This document shows, piece by piece, positions 26,614 to 60,772 of a stretch of 64,000 nucleotides of DNA (positions are counted from its first letter, which is position 1; the number at the start of each line of letters is the position of its first letter). The notes under the pieces were generated by a model. That model saw only the letters and a list, made by a program, of their open reading frames with translations. It did no database searches and was not told where the DNA came from. Source of the stretch: Sinorhizobium terangae (GTDB taxonomy: Bacteria; Pseudomonadota; Alphaproteobacteria; Rhizobiales; Rhizobiaceae); assembly GCF_029714365.1 (NCBI RefSeq), contig NZ_CP121660.1, positions 496,001-560,000 on the forward strand, in the 5' to 3' direction. Made by a program: the position numbers and the translations under genes.

Positions 26614-26947
26614 GATGTGCGTGCGTGAAATCAGATCCAGGATACCGGATGCCGGGAACATTTTGCACCTCTATGGCTGGTTTGAGCGCCTCCAGAGTGG
26701 CGTCTGTGGCTTGACCGACGTTGGTCGGAGAGCGCTGCAGCAATGGCCGCAGCCGGACCTGCCGGCAGCCCAACCCGCTTTTGAGCGTGGTTGCCTGTGA
26801 CTACACCCCGACAGAGCATCGGGTGCACCGTTTGATTCTGCCCAAGGTGTGTACTTGGATGTCGAGCGCCCAAAGGATACGCGCAAAACAGAACATTTTA
26901 GGAACTTCTCCCTGTCATAACTTCGACGGCCGGTTTATAAGGATCGG
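26614..26947. other. About 330 bases without a recognisable gene
   Basis: No recognised family in either direction. It lies between the PhnB-like fragment and the DUF763 gene and should contain the DUF763 promoter. An AAGGA site precedes the ATG at 26948. Confidence 0.4.
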
Positions 26948-28207
26948 ATGGTTCAAAGAGCAGGCAGTGCAGATCTCCCGCTTCATGGTGGCAAGGTTCC
27001 CCGGTGGCTGGGCGAACGCATGACGAAGCTTGGCGCGGTCATCACCGAAGCAATCGTGATTGAATATGGCCGCGACGAGTTTCTCCGGCGTTTGGCGCAC
27101 CCCTTCTGGTTCCAGTCCTTTGGCTGCGTCATGGGTATGGATTGGCACTCCTCCGGAATCACAACAAGTGTCATTGGCGCTTTGAAGCGCGGCCTCGCAC
27201 CCCTTTCGCGGGAACTAGGTGTTCATGTCTGCGGAGGACGTGGGCGAAATTCGAGGCAGACGCCAGCCGAATTGATCGACGTCGGGAATCGTGTCGGCAT
27301 CGACGGCGGTCGTCTCGCAGCCACCAGCCGGCTCGTCGCAAAGGTTGACAGCGCAGCGGTTCAAGATGGATTCGACCTTTACCTGCACGGCTTCATCGTG
27401 GCCGACGACGGCAAATGGGTGGTCGTGCAGCAGGGCATGAATGGTGACAAGCGACAGGCTAGGCGCTACCACTGGCTATCAGAAGGCGTTTCCAGTTTCG
27501 TCGATTCCCCCCATGCAGCGATAGAAGGAAAGCGCCAGGGCGAAATCGTCAATCTCGCCGATAGGCGTGCCGCAGCATCGCGAAAGGGTCAGCTTGACCT
27601 TCTAACCTCTCTCGGGCCGGACCGAATTGTGCGCGAGATAGTCCGGATTGATTCGAAGGTCCAAACGAAAGAACTCGTGCAACCCCTGCTGCCGCACCTT
27701 GTAATGCCGGCACATCACGAGGTGCGAGAAGAAAACATCAACATGAGGCGGTTGCACGCAACGCTTGCTGCGGCCGTCGATCGCGGGCCTGAAGATTTCG
27801 AACAACTCCTGCTCGTTCCAGGCGTCGGTGCGCGGACGGTCAACGCGCTGGCGATGGTGGCAGAAGTGGTGCATGGCGCGCCCTGCCGTTTTGCCGATCC
27901 CGCGCGGTTCTCGCTTGCGCACGGAGGCAAGGATCGCCATCCGTTTCCCGTGCCACTCCAAGTCTACGATCAGACGATCCGCGTAATGAAATCGGCTGTG
28001 ACCAAAGCGCGGCTCGGTCGTGATGAGGAGCTACAGGCGCTGAGACGTTTGGACGATCAGGCGAGGCAGCTGGAGAAATACGTTACCGGCCCGGATCTAA
28101 AAGAAATTGTCGCCGGGGAGTTCCGCCGGTCCCCCGAATGGGGCGGTCGCAGCATCTTTGGCTGGGAGGCTCACCCTGAGCAGTGCGACGAGAAAGCACG
28201 CTCCTAG
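26948..28207 (+). CDS. DUF763 protein with helix-hairpin-helix motif
   Basis: A 419-residue protein of the DUF763 family, found in archaea and scattered bacteria. It opens RAGSADLPLHGGKVPRWLGE and has the family stretch FQSFGCVMGMDWHSSGITTS. The middle contains YHWLSEGVSSFVDSPHAAIE. Around residues 295-312 the sequence LLLVPGVGARTVNALAMVAE fits a helix-hairpin-helix DNA-binding motif, followed by DPARFSLAHGGKDRHPFPVP. These features suggest a DNA- or nucleic-acid-acting protein but the function is not established. The gene is alone, with pseudogene debris upstream, so horizontal acquisition is likely. The ATG at 26948 has an AAGGA site. Confidence 0.85.
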   Translation: MVQRAGSADLPLHGGKVPRWLGERMTKLGAVITEAIVIEYGRDEFLRRLAHPFWFQSFGCVMGMDWHSSGITTSVIGALKRGLAPLSRELGVHVCGGRGRNSRQTPAELIDVGNRVGIDGGRLAATSRLVAKVDSAAVQDGFDLYLHGFIVADDGKWVVVQQGMNGDKRQARRYHWLSEGVSSFVDSPHAAIEGKRQGEIVNLADRRAAASRKGQLDLLTSLGPDRIVREIVRIDSKVQTKELVQPLLPHLVMPAHHEVREENINMRRLHATLAAAVDRGPEDFEQLLLVPGVGARTVNALAMVAEVVHGAPCRFADPARFSLAHGGKDRHPFPVPLQVYDQTIRVMKSAVTKARLGRDEELQALRRLDDQARQLEKYVTGPDLKEIVAGEFRRSPEWGGRSIFGWEAHPEQCDEKARS

Positions 28208-53420: not shown

Positions 53421-54011
53421 TTAACCCACGTGGTCGACGGTTAAAGTGCCTGCCGGTAGCGGTTTGATGAGCGCCTTGGCCGAAACGGTCGGATCCAGCC
53501 AATCAGCCCAGGCGTTTCGCTCCAGAATGACGATCTGCCGGTCGTGGTATGGGGCGATGTCCGGCCCCGGCTCCATCGTCAGCATGGTAAAGGCTTGCCC
53601 AACCTCGGGGGTTTCGCGCCAGATGCCGGCGATGCAGAAGATCGGCTCGTCTTTCTTGGTGAACAGCCACTTGTCCTTGCGCTTCTTTTTCGGATCCTTC
53701 GGGTCGGTGAATTCGTAGAAACCGTCCGCAATGATCAGGCAGCGATTGGAATTGAACTCCCGCCCTTCCGACCGGAAATTATACACCGGCCGCTTGTTCG
53801 GCCCCGGCCAGCTCCAGCGCCGCTGCACGAGCTCGGCCTCATCGCGCGCCCCATCGATCGTCCGGATGATCGGGCCGATATCGGTGATCTTGATGTCCTC
53901 ACGCGCTTCAAGGTTCGGCGCACCTTCGCCGAAACGGATCTTGATCTTGAGCTCGGCAAAGTCCTCGACAATCGAGGTGACATCCACCATCAGCCGATAA
54001 TCATTGCACAT
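53421..54011 (-). CDS. SOS response-associated peptidase (SRAP/YedK/HMCES family)
   Basis: A 196-residue SRAP protein. It begins MCNDYR, so Cys2 becomes the N-terminal nucleophile after removal of Met. The other active-site residues are in YNFRSEGREF (Asn), IIADGFYEF (Glu is in GFYEF/ADG region of the family) and APYHDRQIVIL (His). Family members form a covalent thiazolidine link to abasic sites in single-stranded DNA and shield them. It is divergent from a second SRAP-like gene; an SOS box lies between them. Apparently intact. Confidence 0.92.
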   Translation of the reverse strand: MCNDYRLMVDVTSIVEDFAELKIKIRFGEGAPNLEAREDIKITDIGPIIRTIDGARDEAELVQRRWSWPGPNKRPVYNFRSEGREFNSNRCLIIADGFYEFTDPKDPKKKRKDKWLFTKKDEPIFCIAGIWRETPEVGQAFTMLTMEPGPDIAPYHDRQIVILERNAWADWLDPTVSAKALIKPLPAGTLTVDHVG

Positions 54012-54048
54012 GCGTCCTCCGTCTCAGGTCTGATTGTCTCTCAATCGC

Positions 54049-54063
54049 GTTCCTGGTATGTTC
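54049..54063. promoter_or_regulatory. Alphaproteobacterial LexA (SOS) box
   Basis: GTTC-N7-GTTC, which is GAAC-N7-GAAC on the other strand, in the gap between the two divergent SRAP genes, 38 bases from one start and 6 from the other. The GAAC/GTTC-N7 direct repeat is the known LexA site of alphaproteobacteria. It would put both SRAP genes under DNA-damage control. Confidence 0.8.
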
Positions 54064-54068
54064 TGCCT

Positions 54069-54566
54069 ATGATGAGTGCGACCGTTTTCCAGTCCGACGC
54101 CCCGCTCGATGAGCGCCGTGTGATCATAAGGCGCCATCACGGCGATGTGGAGATGGTGGAGCTGCCGTGGGGACTGCGGCCGCGCGACGGCGATGCGCGC
54201 CCTGTGAACGTCGTCCGGTCGGAAGGAAGGACCTTTCCGACCCACCGCTGCCTGGTGCCGGCCTCGGAGTTTCGCCACAGGAGCTTCAGCTTCTCGCTCG
54301 CCAGCGGCGACTGGTTTTACTTCGCTGGGATTTGGCGGCCGGCGACCCAGGACTGGCCGGACGCTTACGCCATTCTGACGATCGAGGCGAATGCCGATCT
54401 CGCGCCGTTTCACGACCGGCAGATGGCGGTGCTGAACCGGGATCAACGCCTGGCCTGGCTCGACGGACTTGTGTCTGAGGACGAAATCCTCCGTCCGTTG
54501 CCAGCGGGGACCTTCCGGGTCAAGCGCCATTCGATCGATCCTGTCCAGGCGACGCTGGCGGTCTAA
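54069..54566 (+). CDS. SRAP-family paralogue lacking the catalytic cysteine
   Basis: A 165-residue SRAP-like protein beginning MMSATVFQSDAPLDERRV, with no Cys at position 2 and none in the N-terminal region. The other landmarks remain: VNVVRSEGRTF (Asn/Arg/Glu motif), CLVPASEF with Glu, FYFAGIW and APFHDRQMAVL with His. It is divergent from the Cys2-containing SRAP gene and shares its SOS box. The chemistry of abasic-site capture needs Cys2, so it may bind DNA without crosslinking or modulate its partner (inference). Its last four bases overlap dinB's 3' end, convergent. Confidence 0.82.
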   Translation: MMSATVFQSDAPLDERRVIIRRHHGDVEMVELPWGLRPRDGDARPVNVVRSEGRTFPTHRCLVPASEFRHRSFSFSLASGDWFYFAGIWRPATQDWPDAYAILTIEANADLAPFHDRQMAVLNRDQRLAWLDGLVSEDEILRPLPAGTFRVKRHSIDPVQATLAV

Positions 54567-55654
54567 AGCGCCAACCGCAACTGCGGCATCGCTCCGGAGG
54601 TCTGCCGTTCCAATGATGACAGCGAGACGCCGAGCAGGCGGATTCCCCTGCGCGGCGGAAAGATCGGCGCGAGAAGCAGGCCGACCACCTCCTCAAGCTC
54701 GCCGATCGTTTGCAGAGGTGCCGTAACCGTCTTGCTGCGGGTGATCTGGCTGAAGTCCGCATACTTGACCTTGAGCGTCACGGTCTTGGCGCCGATTTCA
54801 TTGGCCTCGCAATAACCCCAGACCTTCTCGATCAGCGGCTGAAGGCCTTCGCGTGCCGGCTCAAAGGAGTGGATGTCCTCAGAGAACGTGTCTTCCGCGC
54901 CGACGGATTTCCGCACGCGGTCCGGCTTGACCTCGCGATTGTCGATGCCGCGGGCAATTCCAAAGAAATATGGTCCCGACTTCCCGAAGTGTTCGACCAG
55001 GAACTCGAGTGTCTTGTCCTTGAGGTCTGCGCCCGTCTCGATCCCGAGCCTATGCATTTTTTCGGCCGTCGCGGGGCCTACTCCATGGAATTTCTTGACC
55101 GGGAGGGCCTCGACGAAGGCCGGTCCGTTCTTCGGCGTAATGACAGCCTGACCATTGGGCTTGTTCAGGTCGGATGCGATCTTGGCGAGGAATTTGTTGT
55201 AGGAAATCCCGGCCGACGCATTGAGGCCGGTGACCTGCTTGATCTTTGCTCGGATCTCCGCGGCAATCTCGGTGGCGATCTCCATGCCCTTCAGGTTTTC
55301 GGTGACGTCGAGATAGGCCTCGTCAAGCGAGAGCGGCTCGATCATCGGCGTGTATTCGGCGAAGATCGCGCGGATCTGCAACGAGACGGCCTTGTAGACG
55401 TCAAAGCGCGGTTTGACGAAGATGAGGTCGGGGCATTTGCGCTTCGCGGTCACCGAAGGCATCGCCGAATGAACGCCGAACTTGCGTGCCTCATAGCTGG
55501 CGGCAGCCACGACGCCGCGGGCTGCAGGATAGCCGACGGCAACGGGCAGGCCCCGCAGCTCGGGATTGTCGCGCTGTTCGACCGATGCGTAGAAGGCGTC
55601 CATATCCACATGCACGATCTTGCGCGCTCGTTTGCTGCCTTCGTCGCTCGTCAT
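54563..55654 (-). CDS. dinB: DNA polymerase IV
   Basis: A 363-residue Y-family polymerase. Catalytic residues Asp17 (HVDMDAFYASVE) and the SLDEAYLDV Asp-Glu pair; little-finger region at the C-terminus (ANEIGAKTVTLKVKYADFSQ). The C-terminal LERQTSGAMPQLRLAL may contact the sliding clamp (the usual QLxLF motif is QLRLAL). It does error-prone lesion bypass. The ATG at 55654 is preceded by GGAAG; in-frame ATGs up to 55678 are possible. No SOS box seen upstream within 300 bases. Confidence 0.94.
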   Translation of the reverse strand: MTSDEGSKRARKIVHVDMDAFYASVEQRDNPELRGLPVAVGYPAARGVVAAASYEARKFGVHSAMPSVTAKRKCPDLIFVKPRFDVYKAVSLQIRAIFAEYTPMIEPLSLDEAYLDVTENLKGMEIATEIAAEIRAKIKQVTGLNASAGISYNKFLAKIASDLNKPNGQAVITPKNGPAFVEALPVKKFHGVGPATAEKMHRLGIETGADLKDKTLEFLVEHFGKSGPYFFGIARGIDNREVKPDRVRKSVGAEDTFSEDIHSFEPAREGLQPLIEKVWGYCEANEIGAKTVTLKVKYADFSQITRSKTVTAPLQTIGELEEVVGLLLAPIFPPRRGIRLLGVSLSSLERQTSGAMPQLRLAL

Positions 55655-56038
55655 GGCACTAGCTTCCATCAGGACCATTTATATCGCCCAGGCATGGAAA
55701 GTGCGCGTGGCATTTGTCACCCTCCGGCGTTTGCATGCGCTGGCAGCCCATTGCCATGCGCCGGCGGATCACCGCGAAGCTCATGCTGGCGCCAAACGCT
55801 TTCACCAACAGTTCTCGCTCAAGCGCGCAATGGCGATCGCATGGCCGACGGATGAATTCAATGATCGGCTCACGGTGACCCCTCAGTCTCGGATCCAGAT
55901 CGTTCACAGGCTCCGGTCGCGCCATGCGAAAAAATTCCCATTCATGCCATCGAATTGAATCCGTTCAAGGATTTCTTCGATGGGCACTGTCGCTCAACTC
56001 ACGCGCGCCACGTGCGCATTGACTCATTTTCACTTTGA
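55655..56038. other. Intergenic between dinB and imuA
   Basis: A minus-strand frame of 88 codons (55659-55925) begins MARPEPVNDLDPRLRGHREP but lacks a recognised family and overlaps the possible longer dinB start, so it is unproven. Contains the promoter of dinB. The SOS box of imuA lies at its right end. Confidence 0.4.
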
Positions 56039-56053
56039 GAACAAATACAGAAC
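56039..56053. promoter_or_regulatory. LexA (SOS) box upstream of imuA
   Basis: GAAC-AAATACA-GAAC, the canonical GAAC-N7-GAAC, 34 bases before the imuA start. SOS control of imuA-imuB-dnaE2 is the rule in alphaproteobacteria. Confidence 0.85.
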
Positions 56054-56086: not shown

Positions 56087-56846
56087 ATGACCGCAGCCGT
56101 CGTCACTTCGAACACCGCCCTCGCTGAGTTGCGCGGGAAAATCGCCAGCCTGGAAGGGGCGGGCTCACGCCAACGAAGCGTCTTGCCGTTCGGGGTGCAG
56201 GAGATCGATGCGCAGCTACCGGGAGGTGGGCTCGCCTATGGTGCGCTGCACGAAGTGGCAGGCGGCGGAAACGGCGCGGTCGACGGCGCGGCTGCGGCAC
56301 TCTTCATCGGCGGCATTGCCGCGCGCACCACCGGCAAGGTGGTCTGGTGCCTGACGCGCTTTGATGTCTTCTTTCCGGCTCTTGCCCAGGTTGGGCTTCA
56401 TCCCGACCGCGTCACCTTCGTCGAGTGCGACAAGGAAGAGACCGTGCTCGCAAGCTTCGAGGAGGCGCTGCGATATGGCGGCCTTGGCGCGGTGATCGCC
56501 GAACTGGTGCCTGCCGATGACGGCATCCCGCCGTCTGCAGCTTGCGGCAGAGAAGTCTGGGACGTTGGGGCTGCTCATCCGTCGATGGCGGCGCCAGACG
56601 GAAGCCTCCGACTTCGGCATGCCGACGGCGGCGGCAAGCCGTTGGCGGATTTCGGTGCTGCCGTCCGAGCCGCTGCCGGTGCCGGGCGTCGGACGGGCGC
56701 GCTGGCTGGCGGAACTGATGCGGGTGAGGGCAGGGGAGGGAGGCGAGTTCATCATCGGAGCATGTGATGGTCAGGGTCGTATCTGTCTTTCTTCCGACAC
56801 TGTCGACCGACCGGATCAGGCGGGCCGAGCCTTCGCTGTCTCCTGA
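56087..56846 (+). pseudogene. imuA: imuA with a frameshift in its middle
   Basis: From ATG 56087 the frame is clean to about 56508 (VLPFGVQEIDAQLPGGGLAY; TGKVVWCLTRFDVFFPALAQ; LRYGGLGAVIAEL), a RecA-like fold without a good Walker A. Then the expected V-x-LPMTASRRLQLAAEKSG continues in another frame from near 56510 and is open to 56846 (RQTEASDFGMPTAAASRWRI; LPVPGVGRARWLAELM). The raw frame instead ends at 56767 with unrelated residues. A one-base gain or two-base loss at about 56505-56512 explains it. ImuA links RecA and ImuB in the mutasome; a truncated form would lose the C-terminal partner-binding part. Confidence 0.85.
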
Positions 56847-58281
56847 CACGCCCGTTGTGATGATCGCCAGGAGCGGCTCGAAGCGATGGGTTGCGGCGGC
56901 CGATCGGGCAGCTCTTAAACTTGGTCTTCGCGCCGGCATGCCGGCGGCCAACGCGCAGGCGCTGGTCCAGGGCCTGGTGATGATCGATGCCGATCCGGCG
57001 GCCGACCTCGCGACGCTTGAACGGCTGACGCTCTGGGCCTTGTCGCAATATTCTCCCGTTGTCGCCATGGATCCTCCTGATGGCATCGTCATGGACACGG
57101 AAGGTGCGGATCATCTTCAGGGTGGCGAGGAACTGATGCTGTCCGGTCTCGTCAATCGTTTCCGCGGCCGGGGTCTGGCCGCGCGAGCGGCGATCGCCGA
57201 CACCTGGGGTGCGGCGCATGCGCTCGCCCGGTCCACGCATCGCGAAACGATCATCGTCCCGCGCGGCGAGACCGCCAAGGCGGTGAACCGGTTGCCGCTC
57301 TCATCCCTGCGGCTGCCGGTCGAGATCGTCGGAAGCCTCCACACTCTCGGCTTTGCTACGGTCGGCGATCTTGCGGCAACGCCGCGCGCGCCGCTGACGT
57401 TGCGCTTCGGCCCGGAGGTCGGGCGATGTCTCGACCAGATGTTCGGCCGGCTCGGCGAGCCGATCGATCCGATCCGGCCGGCTGATCTGGTCGAGGAATG
57501 CAAGTCTTTCGCAGAACCGATCGGCGCGCCGGAAACGATCGAGAAATATGTGACCCGCCTCGTGCGGCAGCTCTGTCTGGAGCTCGAGAAGCGGGGGCTT
57601 GGCGTGCGGCGTGCCGATCTTATCGTCCAGCGCGTCGACAACACCATCCAGGCTGTGAGGGCAGGGACGGCGAAGCCGGTCCGAGACGTGGCCTGGCTGA
57701 CAAAACTGTTCAGGGACCGCATAGAGAAGATCGAGCCTGGCTTCGGCATCGAAAAACTCAGTCTGGCGGCCACTCTGGCCGAGCCACTCGTCGAAACGCA
57801 ATCGGCCTCATCCCTGATCGAAGAGCAGGTTACCGATGTGACGCCGCTCATCGATGTGCTCGGCAATCGCGGCGGCCAGCGGATTTTCCGCGTAGCGCCG
57901 GTTGCAAGCGACGTCCCGGAGCGCAGTGTCCAGCGGATCGCGCCGACGGCCGATGAGGACGGCGCCACCTGGCCGATGCACTGGCCGAGGCCGCCACGGC
58001 TTCTAACGCGTCCAGAACTGATCGAGGTGATTGCACTCTTGCCCGATCATCCGCCGGTCTCGTTTACCTGGCGCGGCAAGCGCCGCCGGGTGAAGCGCGC
58101 CGACGGACCGGAACGGATTTTCGGGGAGTGGTGGAAACGCAGCGCCGAGTGGATCGCCGTCCGCGACTACTTCGTCGTCGAGGATGACAGCGGCGAGCGC
58201 TTCTGGATCTTCCGGTCCGGCGACGGCGTCGATGCGGAAACCGGATCGAACAAATGGTTCCTGCACGGGGTGTTTGCGTGA
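56767..58281 (+). CDS. imuB: ImuB, Y-family-like mutasome hub
   Basis: A 504-residue Y-family relative that lacks the polymerase acidic residues: where DinB has DMDAFYASVE this has [15 protein letters not shown]. Other marks are [20 protein letters not shown], the little-finger region ([20 protein letters not shown]) and the C-terminal [20 protein letters not shown] then [15 protein letters not shown]. ImuB binds the sliding clamp, ImuA and DnaE2. The frame is complete. It overlaps the 3' part of the restored imuA and its TGA overlaps the dnaE2 start by one base. Confidence 0.93.
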
Positions 58282-60772
58282 TGCGCTATGCCGAACTCCA
58301 GGTCACCACCCATTTCTCGTTCTTGAGGGGCGCAAGCTCGGCTGAGGAACTGTTTGCGACGGCAAAGCTGATGGGGATCGAAGCGCTCGGCGTCGTCGAC
58401 CGCAATAGTCTTGCCGGCATCGTGCGGGCGCTGGAAGCTTCGCGCGCCACCGGCTTGCGGCTCGTCGTCGGCTGCCGGCTCGATCTGCAGGACGGCATGT
58501 CGATCCTCGCCTATCCCACCGATCGCGCCGCCTATTCGCGCCTGACGCGGCTACTGACGCTCGGCAAGGGCCGGGGCGGGAAGGCCAGCTGTATCCTGCA
58601 CCTCGATGACGTCAGGCTCTATTCTGAGGGGCTGATCGGCGTCCTGCTGCCGGACTTGGCCGATGAGACCTGTGCCGTACAGCTCAGGAAGATGGCCGAT
58701 GTATTTGGCGACCGCGCCTATGTCTCGCTCTGCCTGCGCCGTCGTCCGAACGATCAACTTCGCCTGCATGAGCTGTCGAACCTGGCCATAAAGCACCGGG
58801 TGAAGACCGTCGTCACCAATGACGTGCTGTTTCATGAGCCCGGCCGGCGGCAGCTGCAGGATGTCGTCACCTGCATCCGCACCGGCACCACAATCGACGA
58901 TGTCGGTTTCGAGCGCGAGCGGCACGCCGACGGCTATCTGAAGCCGCCGGAGGAGATGGCCCGTCTTTTCGCTCGCTACCCGGAAGCCCTCGCACGCACG
59001 ACGGAGATCGTCGAGCGGTGCAGGTTCTCTCTCGAGGAGCTCGTTTATCAATATCCCGAGGAAGCGCTGATCCCGGGCCTGACCGCGCAACAGTCGCTGG
59101 AGCACTACACCTGGGAAGGCGTCAAGATGCGTTACCCCGAGGGGCTGCCGGCGCATGTCGAAAAGACCATTCGCCACGAACTGGCGTTGATCGAGACGAT
59201 GAAATACGCGCCCTACTTCCTGACGGTGTTCTCCATCGTCCGTTATGCCCGGTCACAAGGCATTCTCTGTCAGGGCAGGGGATCAGCGGCCAATTCCGCC
59301 GTGTGCTATGTGCTCGGCATCACTTCGATCGATCCCGACACCAACGATCTGCTGTTCGAGCGCTTTGTCTCCCAGGAGCGCGACGAACCGCCCGATATCG
59401 ATGTCGATTTCGAACATGAGCGGCGCGAAGAGGTGATCCAGTGGATCTACAAGACCTATGGCCATGACAAGGCGGCCCTCTGCTCGACGGTCACCCGCTA
59501 TTGGGCCAAGGGCGCCATTCGCGACGTCGGCAAGGCGCTGGGGTTGCCGGAGGATCTGATCAAGGCGCTCTCCTCCGGCATCTGGTCCTGGTCGGAGACC
59601 GTCGGCGAGCGGCAGGTGCGTGAACTCGGCCTCAATCCGGACGACCGGCGTCTCGCTTTGACCCTAACGCTTGCCCAGCAGCTGATGGGTGCGCCGCGGC
59701 ATCTCGGTCAGCATCCCGGCGGCTTCGTTCTCACCCATGACAGGCTCGATGATCTTGTGCCGATCGAGCCGGCGACGATGGCCGACCGGCAGGTGATCGA
59801 ATGGGACAAGGACGACGTCGAGGCGCTGAAATTCATGAAGGTCGATGTGCTGGCGCTCGGCATGCTGACCTGCATGGCCAAGGCCTTCGCGCTGATCCGG
59901 GAGCACAAGCATGAGAATCTAGACCTTGCGACGATCCCGCAGGAGGATCCGGCGACCTATGCGATGATCCGCAAGGCCGACACGCTCGGCACCTTCCAGA
60001 TCGAATCCCGCGCGCAGATGTCGATGCTGCCGAGGATGAAACCGAGGACTTTTTATGACTTGGTCATTCAGGTGGCGATCGTCCGCCCCGGGCCGATCCA
60101 GGGCGACATGGTGCATCCCTACCTGCGCCGACGCGAAGGCAAGGAGAAGGTCGAATACCCGACACCCGAACTGGAGGCGGTCCTCCACAAGACACTCGGC
60201 GTGCCGCTGTTTCAGGAGTCGGCGATGAAGGTGGCGATGGTCTGCGCGGGATTCACCGGCGGCGAAGCCGACCAGCTGCGGAAATCCATGGCGACCTTCA
60301 AGTTCACAGGTGGCGTCTCGAAGTTTAAGGACAAGCTCGTCTCCGGCATGATCAGGAACGGCTACTCGCCGGAGTTCGCCGAGAAGACATTCTCGCAGCT
60401 CGAAGGCTTCGGTTCCTATGGGTTCCCGGAAAGCCATGCGGCCTCCTTTGCGCTGATCGCCTATGCCTCCAACTACGTGAAGTGCCATTTTCCGGACGTC
60501 TTCTGCGCGGCACTTCTGAACTCGCAGCCGATGGGCTTTTGGTTCATCTGGTCGCCCAGCAGCTCTTCGATCTCTCGGCCGATCTGTCGAGCCTTGCCGA
60601 GCGCGATGGCGAATTCCGGCCGGCGACCGGCCGTGGCGACGAATTCGCCCATGGCTCTCCCGGAAGCCTCGATTCCCGCGAGCGAGCGGTCCCGGGAGTT
60701 CGGGCGAGGGATATGTTCACGCCGGATCTTCATATCGATACGCTGAAGATCAAGAGCCGGAATTTTCAGTAA
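58281..60772 (+). pseudogene. dnaE2: dnaE2 with an internal deletion
   Basis: Error-prone C-family polymerase. PHP domain at the start ([20 protein letters not shown]), catalytic [18 protein letters not shown] and KVDVLALGM, then fingers up to residue 753 ([11 protein letters not shown]). There, at about 60540, the sequence jumps: the expected ~250 residues (HhH and most of the OB-fold region) are absent and the C-terminus appears in another frame as [20 protein letters not shown] to [18 protein letters not shown], stop 60772. The in-frame product ends with unrelated residues at 60746. Normal length is near 1,080 residues. The catalytic acids are present but the beta-binding/OB part is lost, so it is very likely non-functional. 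Confidence 0.92.

Follow-up and report, generated by a model that had tools for sequence, protein, structure and literature searches.

Analysis of a 64,000-nucleotide (nt) stretch of Sinorhizobium terangae DNA (the window: contig NZ_CP121660.1, positions 496,001 to 560,000) revealed a gene for an SRAP-fold protein that lacks the Cys2 through which YedK and HMCES protect abasic sites, and that stands back to back with a gene for a Cys2-bearing SRAP across a LexA (SOS) box. Many soil and plant-associated bacteria carry the Cys-less gene in this arrangement, and the evidence supports well the view that it represents a conserved, SOS-linked class of pseudo-SRAPs with a live partner, recognizable by its lost catalytic residues and its promoter layout. 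The window belongs to a 2.09 Mb replicon of a three-contig genome of 6.63 Mb, in which there were five SRAP matches: three canonical proteins of the MCGR type, the partner and the Cys-less protein. An original prediction, made from the sequence of the window, had described a Cys2 SRAP starting MCNDYR paired with a divergent paralogue starting MMSATVFQ, and both open reading frames were found as described.

By its sequence, the Cys-less protein is a pseudoenzyme that has undergone more than a point loss of Cys2. We aligned 79 Cys-less proteins (the window protein, those of 30 loci, and 48 database relatives chosen for diversity from the 350 described below) with 22 MCN-type SRAPs, the type to which the partner belongs, and 17 canonical SRAPs. 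Cys2 and Glu105 (YedK numbering) were found in none of the Cys-less rows and in every MCN-type and canonical row, Asn75 in 13 Cys-less, all 22 MCN-type and 15 canonical rows, and His160 in 37, 22 and 16 rows of the three groups, respectively. Arg was kept at position 77 in 78 Cys-less, 22 MCN-type and 17 canonical rows and at position 162 in 79, 22 and 16, as was the Trp of the WGL motif in 79, 19 and 17. In the window protein Asn75 aligns to Val48 (the nearby Asn is residue 47) and Glu105 to His70 (the nearby Glu is residue 67), and only His160 has its equivalent, His115, in register; these placements rest on the alignment, which runs ungapped from the conserved RCL motif to the Glu105 column. 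The original prediction had the paralogue keeping the Asn, Glu and His positions and had named loss of this pocket as the test of its own claim; a preserved pocket is rejected, with neither Asn nor Glu in the window protein and His confined to the 37 rows noted above.

In the excerpts on which all citations here are based, Cys2 is called absolutely conserved (PMC3765255) or invariant (PMC9436759) in SRAP proteins, Glu105 is described as essential for crosslinking and Asn75 as of little weight at internal sites, and DNA binding survives mutation of these catalytic residues (PMC9436759). Two arginines of 1zn6, R86 and R180, are predicted DNA contacts (PMC3765255), and from their spacing to the catalytic Glu and His they probably correspond to R77 and R162 of YedK. 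Retention of these arginines together with loss of Cys2, Asn and Glu suggests that the Cys-less protein may bind DNA and should not crosslink, so the earlier description of a non-crosslinking SRAP presumably holds.

The fold is retained in shortened form. The Cys-less protein scored 53.4 bits against the Pfam SRAP profile (PF02586; curated cut-off 27.1) and is N-terminally truncated, covering positions 39-199 of 214, and an AlphaFold2 model built from the 118 diverse rows has the SRAP fold, shared with YedK and HMCES over ~150 residues, and an N-terminus with no counterpart of the Cys2 strand. Of the structural comparison with YedK proposed at the outset, the fold was thus borne out by the model, but the Asn/Glu/His pocket was not borne out by the alignment. 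Identity between the two proteins of the window pair is 40%. Profile searches with the Cys-less protein gave no match in NCBIfam and, in Pfam and PHROGs, matches of the SRAP type only, and membership of an anti-phage defence system was rejected after a PADLOC search gave no match.

Loci were gathered in one scan of genome contigs that kept the best 80 of 119 relatives, among which the closest in named genomes came from Ensifer/Sinorhizobium, and they number 81 with the window; two peptide patterns (DWFYFAG and CLVPASEF) were used to fetch them, which biases the set to copies keeping these stretches. A homologue is also present on pSymA of S. meliloti 1021, at 493171-493665. Copies were counted as intact when the open frame was at least 480 nt and the start followed the LexA box, with L103 and L104, which lack the box, added by hand; by this definition L091 (154 amino acids, box spacer one base short) and L086 fall outside the intact set. 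In the window, the open frame continues for 609 nt upstream of the Cys-less ATG and contains no start codon followed by Cys. Among the 65 intact genes (window included), such a combination occurs once, at -60 in L075, the start codon is ATG in 64, and an in-frame stop lies within 24 nt upstream of the start in 18. Neither Cys2 nor M-C within the first 60 residues was found in any of 350 relatives, entries annotated with longer N-termini included, and 333 of them carry an ASEF-type motif; these are different proteins pooled from three database searches (the best 120 each of 657, 300 and 498 matches). The alternative-start check suggested by the original prediction therefore leaves the paralogue without Cys2.

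A second kind of Cys-less SRAP was seen in another proteobacterial genome (L136, open frame 1369-2133), where MAGRLY follows an in-frame Met, with Ala replacing Cys2, and where by eye Ile stands at the place of Glu105 and Thr at that of His160. In addition, the records of four Cys-less proteins (L144, L145, L146 and L147) carry the Gene Ontology term protein-DNA covalent cross-linking, unsupported by their residues; automatic annotation can give covalent crosslinking to proteins without the residues it needs.

The promoter of the Cys-less gene is conserved as well. GTTC-N7-GTTC is the motif described for alphaproteobacterial LexA (PMC8565304, PMC9578287), and on its own the box is weak evidence, with four exact matches in the window and 60 with one mismatch against a shuffled mean of 51.7. 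An exact box stands at the Cys-less start in 73 of the 77 loci (window included) that remain after four without a readable 5' end are set aside, so that its position is not due to chance; the exceptions are L091 and L101, L103 and L104, which have no exact box. As originally predicted, then, the divergent pair shares one SOS box, a single exact match between the genes. Among the 73 box-bearing loci, 71 have TATGTT within the box, 70 have TTG at a spacing of exactly 17 nt ahead of this -10 element, and the distance from the -10 to the start codon is 6-10 nt in 72 and 3 nt in one. An exact operator overlapping the predicted -10 is the configuration by which we assign the Cys-less gene to the LexA regulon, and LexA probably controls it in the cell. 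Shine-Dalgarno-like motifs are absent ahead of the Cys-less start in all 77 loci, and the partner has one in 55 of the 73 loci where its start was mapped. With 6 nt between -10 and ATG in the window, the transcript is probably leaderless, with its predicted start on the A of the ATG; in S. meliloti, all 171 mapped leaderless starts fall on AUG (PMC3616915).

Partner sequence was found alongside the Cys-less gene in 77 of 80 loci, and in the three loci without it (L058, L086 and L111) the Cys-less 5' end is lost. All 64 intact copies outside the window have partner sequence alongside, and the partner is intact in 57. Samples not chosen for the pair, which overlap one another, agreed: 8 of 8 loci were paired in the Rhizobiaceae sample (in 7 of 151 genomes, two of the eight being split by a frameshift), 8 of 8 genomes with a full-length match in the genus sample (several others hold pieces only), and 5 of 5 loci in the class-level sample (in 4 of 387 genomes), with L007 and L012 of the Rhizobiaceae sample and the G255 locus classed by score and position rather than by reading the sequence. 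Three candidate orphans in the class-level sample (G250, G335 and G497) proved to be MCN-type proteins with Cys2. MCN-type SRAPs are also found alone, without a Cys-less gene, and the dependence of the Cys-less gene on its partner looks one-sided.

An IQ-TREE phylogeny of the 118 rows placed the 79 Cys-less proteins on one side of a branch (100/98) beside the MCN-type SRAPs, with these two groups apart from the canonical SRAPs (100/97). The phylogeny proposed by the original prediction thus yielded one Cys-less clade, spanning several orders, with MCN-type neighbours. The median ratio of nonsynonymous to synonymous substitution rates (dN/dS) was 0.153 among the 65 intact Cys-less genes (504 pairs with dS 0.15-1.2) and 0.109 for the partner (1291 pairs), and in the 375 pairs usable for both it was 0.147 vs 0.096, with the Cys-less ratio higher in 92%. 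The Cys-less gene evolves faster than its partner, yet under clear constraint, indicating purifying selection.

Table 1. Features of the SRAP pair and its surroundings, in positions of the window.
Feature	Position	Strand	Basis
Cys-less, N-terminally short SRAP-fold protein (pseudo-SRAP), 165 amino acids, begins MMSATVFQ	54069..54566	+	open reading frame, Pfam match
Partner: Cys2 SRAP, 196 amino acids, MCNDYR type, Asn/Glu/His in register	53421..54011	-	Pfam SRAP 85.3 bits, positions 1-207
LexA (SOS) box GTTCCTGGTATGTTC	54049..54063	+	exact GTTC-N7-GTTC match, between both SRAP genes
Predicted -35 hexamer TTGTCT, Cys-less gene	54034..54039	+	TTG at fixed 17 nt from -10 in 70/73 loci
Predicted -10 hexamer TATGTT, within LexA box, 6 nt before ATG	54057..54062	+	TATGTT in 71/73 loci
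Shine-Dalgarno motif GGAGG, partner gene	54016..54020	-	sequence
Val48 codon, at place of catalytic Asn75 of YedK	54210..54212	+	alignment
Arg50 codon, probable equivalent of R77 (YedK) / R86 (1zn6)	54216..54218	+	alignment
Glu67 codon, family-specific Glu	54267..54269	+	alignment
His70 codon, at place of catalytic Glu105	54276..54278	+	alignment
His115 codon, equivalent of His160	54411..54413	+	alignment
Arg117 codon, probable equivalent of R162 (YedK) / R180 (1zn6)	54417..54419	+	alignment
dinB (DNA polymerase IV), convergent, 4-nt overlap with Cys-less gene end	54563..55678	-	open reading frame; order matches annotated NZ_CP104161
imuA and imuB, mutagenesis cassette	56087..58281	+	names via synteny with annotated NZ_CP104161
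Exact LexA box ahead of imuA-imuB	56039-56053		motif scan

The pair as such is more constant than any neighbouring gene (features of the window are listed in Table 1). In 28 of the 64 intact loci, dinB follows downstream of the Cys-less gene at a distance of no more than 250 nt (convergent in 20, codirectional in 8). The fetched flanks, which extend ~5 kb on both sides in 55 of the 64, contain at least one of dinB, imuA, imuB, dnaE2, ligD and xth in 48. The annotated plasmid NZ_CP104161 has the order ligD, partner, Cys-less gene and dinB, with the pair divergent; on two further annotated plasmids the Cys-less gene and dinB are codirectional, one of them having an incomplete gene table that lists no partner, and in a Sphingomonas plasmid form imuA, imuB and dnaE2 lie to one side, xth and ligD to the other. 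SRAP genes beside dinB, imuA-imuB-dnaE2 and end-joining genes have already been described (PMC3765255). Elsewhere in the window, the match of dnaE2 (58254-60746) to the NCBIfam error-prone polymerase stops at position 775 of 1047 and the gene continues as an unmatched tail, so that it looks truncated or frameshifted, and a further exact LexA box (26891-26905) stands ~43 nt ahead of a 419-residue open reading frame (26948-28207) that has no NCBIfam match.

These features suggest a scheme in which an SRAP-fold ancestor lost its N-terminal Cys2 segment and the catalytic Asn and Glu, while the arginines thought to hold DNA stayed. LexA would repress the Cys-less gene through the box covering its own -10, and upon damage the protein would be made from a leaderless mRNA, along with the Cys2 SRAP transcribed in the opposite direction. 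It might then bind single-stranded or abasic DNA without reacting, and compete for, or keep open, abasic sites otherwise destined for covalent capture by the partner, so that repair enzymes or the translesion polymerases that are often encoded close by (DinB, ImuA-ImuB-DnaE2) could act on them. That a pseudo-SRAP under LexA binds such DNA without reacting and works with its partner is our preferred reading, held tentatively at close to an even chance; the tempering of the partner and the hand-over to polymerases are a guess, and each of the roles first suggested for the protein (regulator, reader of abasic DNA, competing binder) is possible. A bolder version, to which we lean somewhat less, is a two-protein SRAP system in which an SOS-inducible dead SRAP acts as obligate regulator of its crosslinking counterpart, deciding between a covalent shield and mutagenic bypass by nearby, often plasmid-borne polymerases. 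If that were true, the system would hold the first pseudoenzyme in abasic-site crosslinking to our knowledge, as we know of no other.

Several points weigh against the preferred reading. DNA binding, lack of crosslinking and contact with the partner are each presumed for the Cys-less protein, and Glu67 could mean new chemistry instead of none. Nine of the 73 loci in which the partner start was mapped have an intergenic space of 171-313 nt, with the box 150-290 nt from the partner and still at the Cys-less gene; since these loci show no further box between it and the partner, even with one mismatch allowed, the operator belongs first to the Cys-less gene, and the co-induction proposed originally fits the layout of most loci but not of these nine. 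L086 keeps residues 9-165 open without any partner, 7 of the 64 intact copies stand beside a partner that is broken, without a start, or cut by a contig end, and 16 of 80 Cys-less genes are broken, shortened or 5'-truncated, nine of them beside an intact partner, so that many strains can do without the gene. Full-length copies are present in only 8 of the 33 genomes of the genus, and in 16 of the 64 intact loci the fetched flanks show no repair gene of the set sought. The tree was rooted arbitrarily and has long branches joining close to its base, which leaves the sister group less certain than the clade itself, and the first 30 alignment codons are looser (median dN/dS 0.287, 358 pairs).

Two side observations concern loci of these kinds. 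In seven of the nine loci with enlarged intergenic space (L043, L045, L049, L053, L054, L056, L087, L096, L098), a TATATT(G)NACC-like element was seen by eye ahead of the partner and is perhaps part of its own promoter. Ten of the 80 loci (L061, L085, L095, L096, L098, L099, L100, L102, L105, L107) give a two-frame Cys-less match, as if split by an insertion or deletion, some perhaps being draft errors, and plasmid records of S. meliloti and R. phaseoli likewise contain matches in two pieces. Programmed frameshifting was rejected as the source of split genes; the breaks, judged by eye, fall at differing places, mostly in short single-base runs, and so look like ordinary insertions or deletions or draft errors.

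Among the alternatives, the one that survives best casts the Cys-less protein as a heteromeric subunit that has no action on DNA alone and binds the partner, altering its stability, turnover or adduct reversal. The presence of partner sequence beside every intact copy, the existence of solitary MCN-type SRAPs, the correlated divergence of both genes, and dead paralogues that regulate a live sister in other systems (PMC5201418, PMC3663545) speak for such a subunit, which we nevertheless consider unlikely: adjacency and correlated distances are also expected from joint inheritance of one segment, the partner is damaged or cut off beside seven intact copies, and the kept arginines suggest that DNA is still a ligand. 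More doubtful is an AP-lyase-like or other enzyme that uses a different nucleophile, with Glu67 and residues 70 and 115 as a new site. Position 67 is Glu in 77 of the 79 Cys-less rows, where MCN-type proteins have Gly or Ala and canonical SRAPs Gly or Ser (Gly in 16 of 17), a constancy that is partly by construction because one of the two locus-fetching patterns contains Glu67, and the C2A mutant of YedK retains Schiff base formation and cleavage of abasic (AP) DNA (PMC9436759). However, residues 70 (His 26, Val 17, Phe 14, Leu 11, Ile 7) and 115 (His 37, Gln 27) vary among the same rows, nothing at the N-terminus corresponds to the Cys2 strand, and Glu105, whose mutation makes the C2A lyase 25-fold slower (PMC9436759), is absent.

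A regulator of its own locus that binds DNA or RNA, or some other non-repair role, is a shade less credible again; the divergent layout around one operator resembles autoregulated pairs, but control is already explained by LexA, and the profile and PADLOC searches described above point only to SRAP. A decaying duplicate without function would account for the 16 damaged copies and for the patchy presence across genome samples, but is very improbable in the face of purifying selection in intact copies, a conserved promoter, a single clade across several orders, and 350 relatives among the database matches listed. Finally, we give practically no weight to a start-site error hiding an upstream start and Cys2, for which the open frame and some longer annotated N-termini leave room, since neither an upstream start with Cys nor a Cys2 among the 350 relatives was found, stops close upstream of the start recur among relatives, and the predicted promoter lies directly before the ATG.

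A Cys-less clade under selection, tied to a Cys2 SRAP and an SOS operator, suggests a use of the SRAP fold apart from crosslinking, and Cys-less SRAPs offer a natural tool for separating DNA binding from covalent capture. In agreement with the original prediction, we found no paper on Cys-less SRAPs, and no described function for the class, in searches of the open-licence literature, in which the excerpts of PMC1839093 and PMC9578287 mention neither YedK nor SRAP. The nearest known proteins are the MCN-type Cys2 SRAPs of Alphaproteobacteria, comprising the partner and its solitary relatives, which occupy the neighbouring clade but, unlike the Cys-less proteins, have Cys2, Asn, Glu and His in all 22 rows, mostly start behind a Shine-Dalgarno-like motif, and can occur alone. 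ImuB, encoded nearby, likewise seems to be an inactive paralogue of an active enzyme and is linked to SOS (PMC3765255); it belongs to the Y-family polymerases, and the parallel is an analogy only. With YedK and HMCES the Cys-less protein shares the fold, the arginines and Trp of the presumed DNA channel, and a context of SOS and translesion polymerases (PMC3765255), and it differs from them in lacking the N-terminal Cys2 strand, Asn75 and Glu105, in treating His160 as optional, and in its length of 165 rather than ~220 amino acids.
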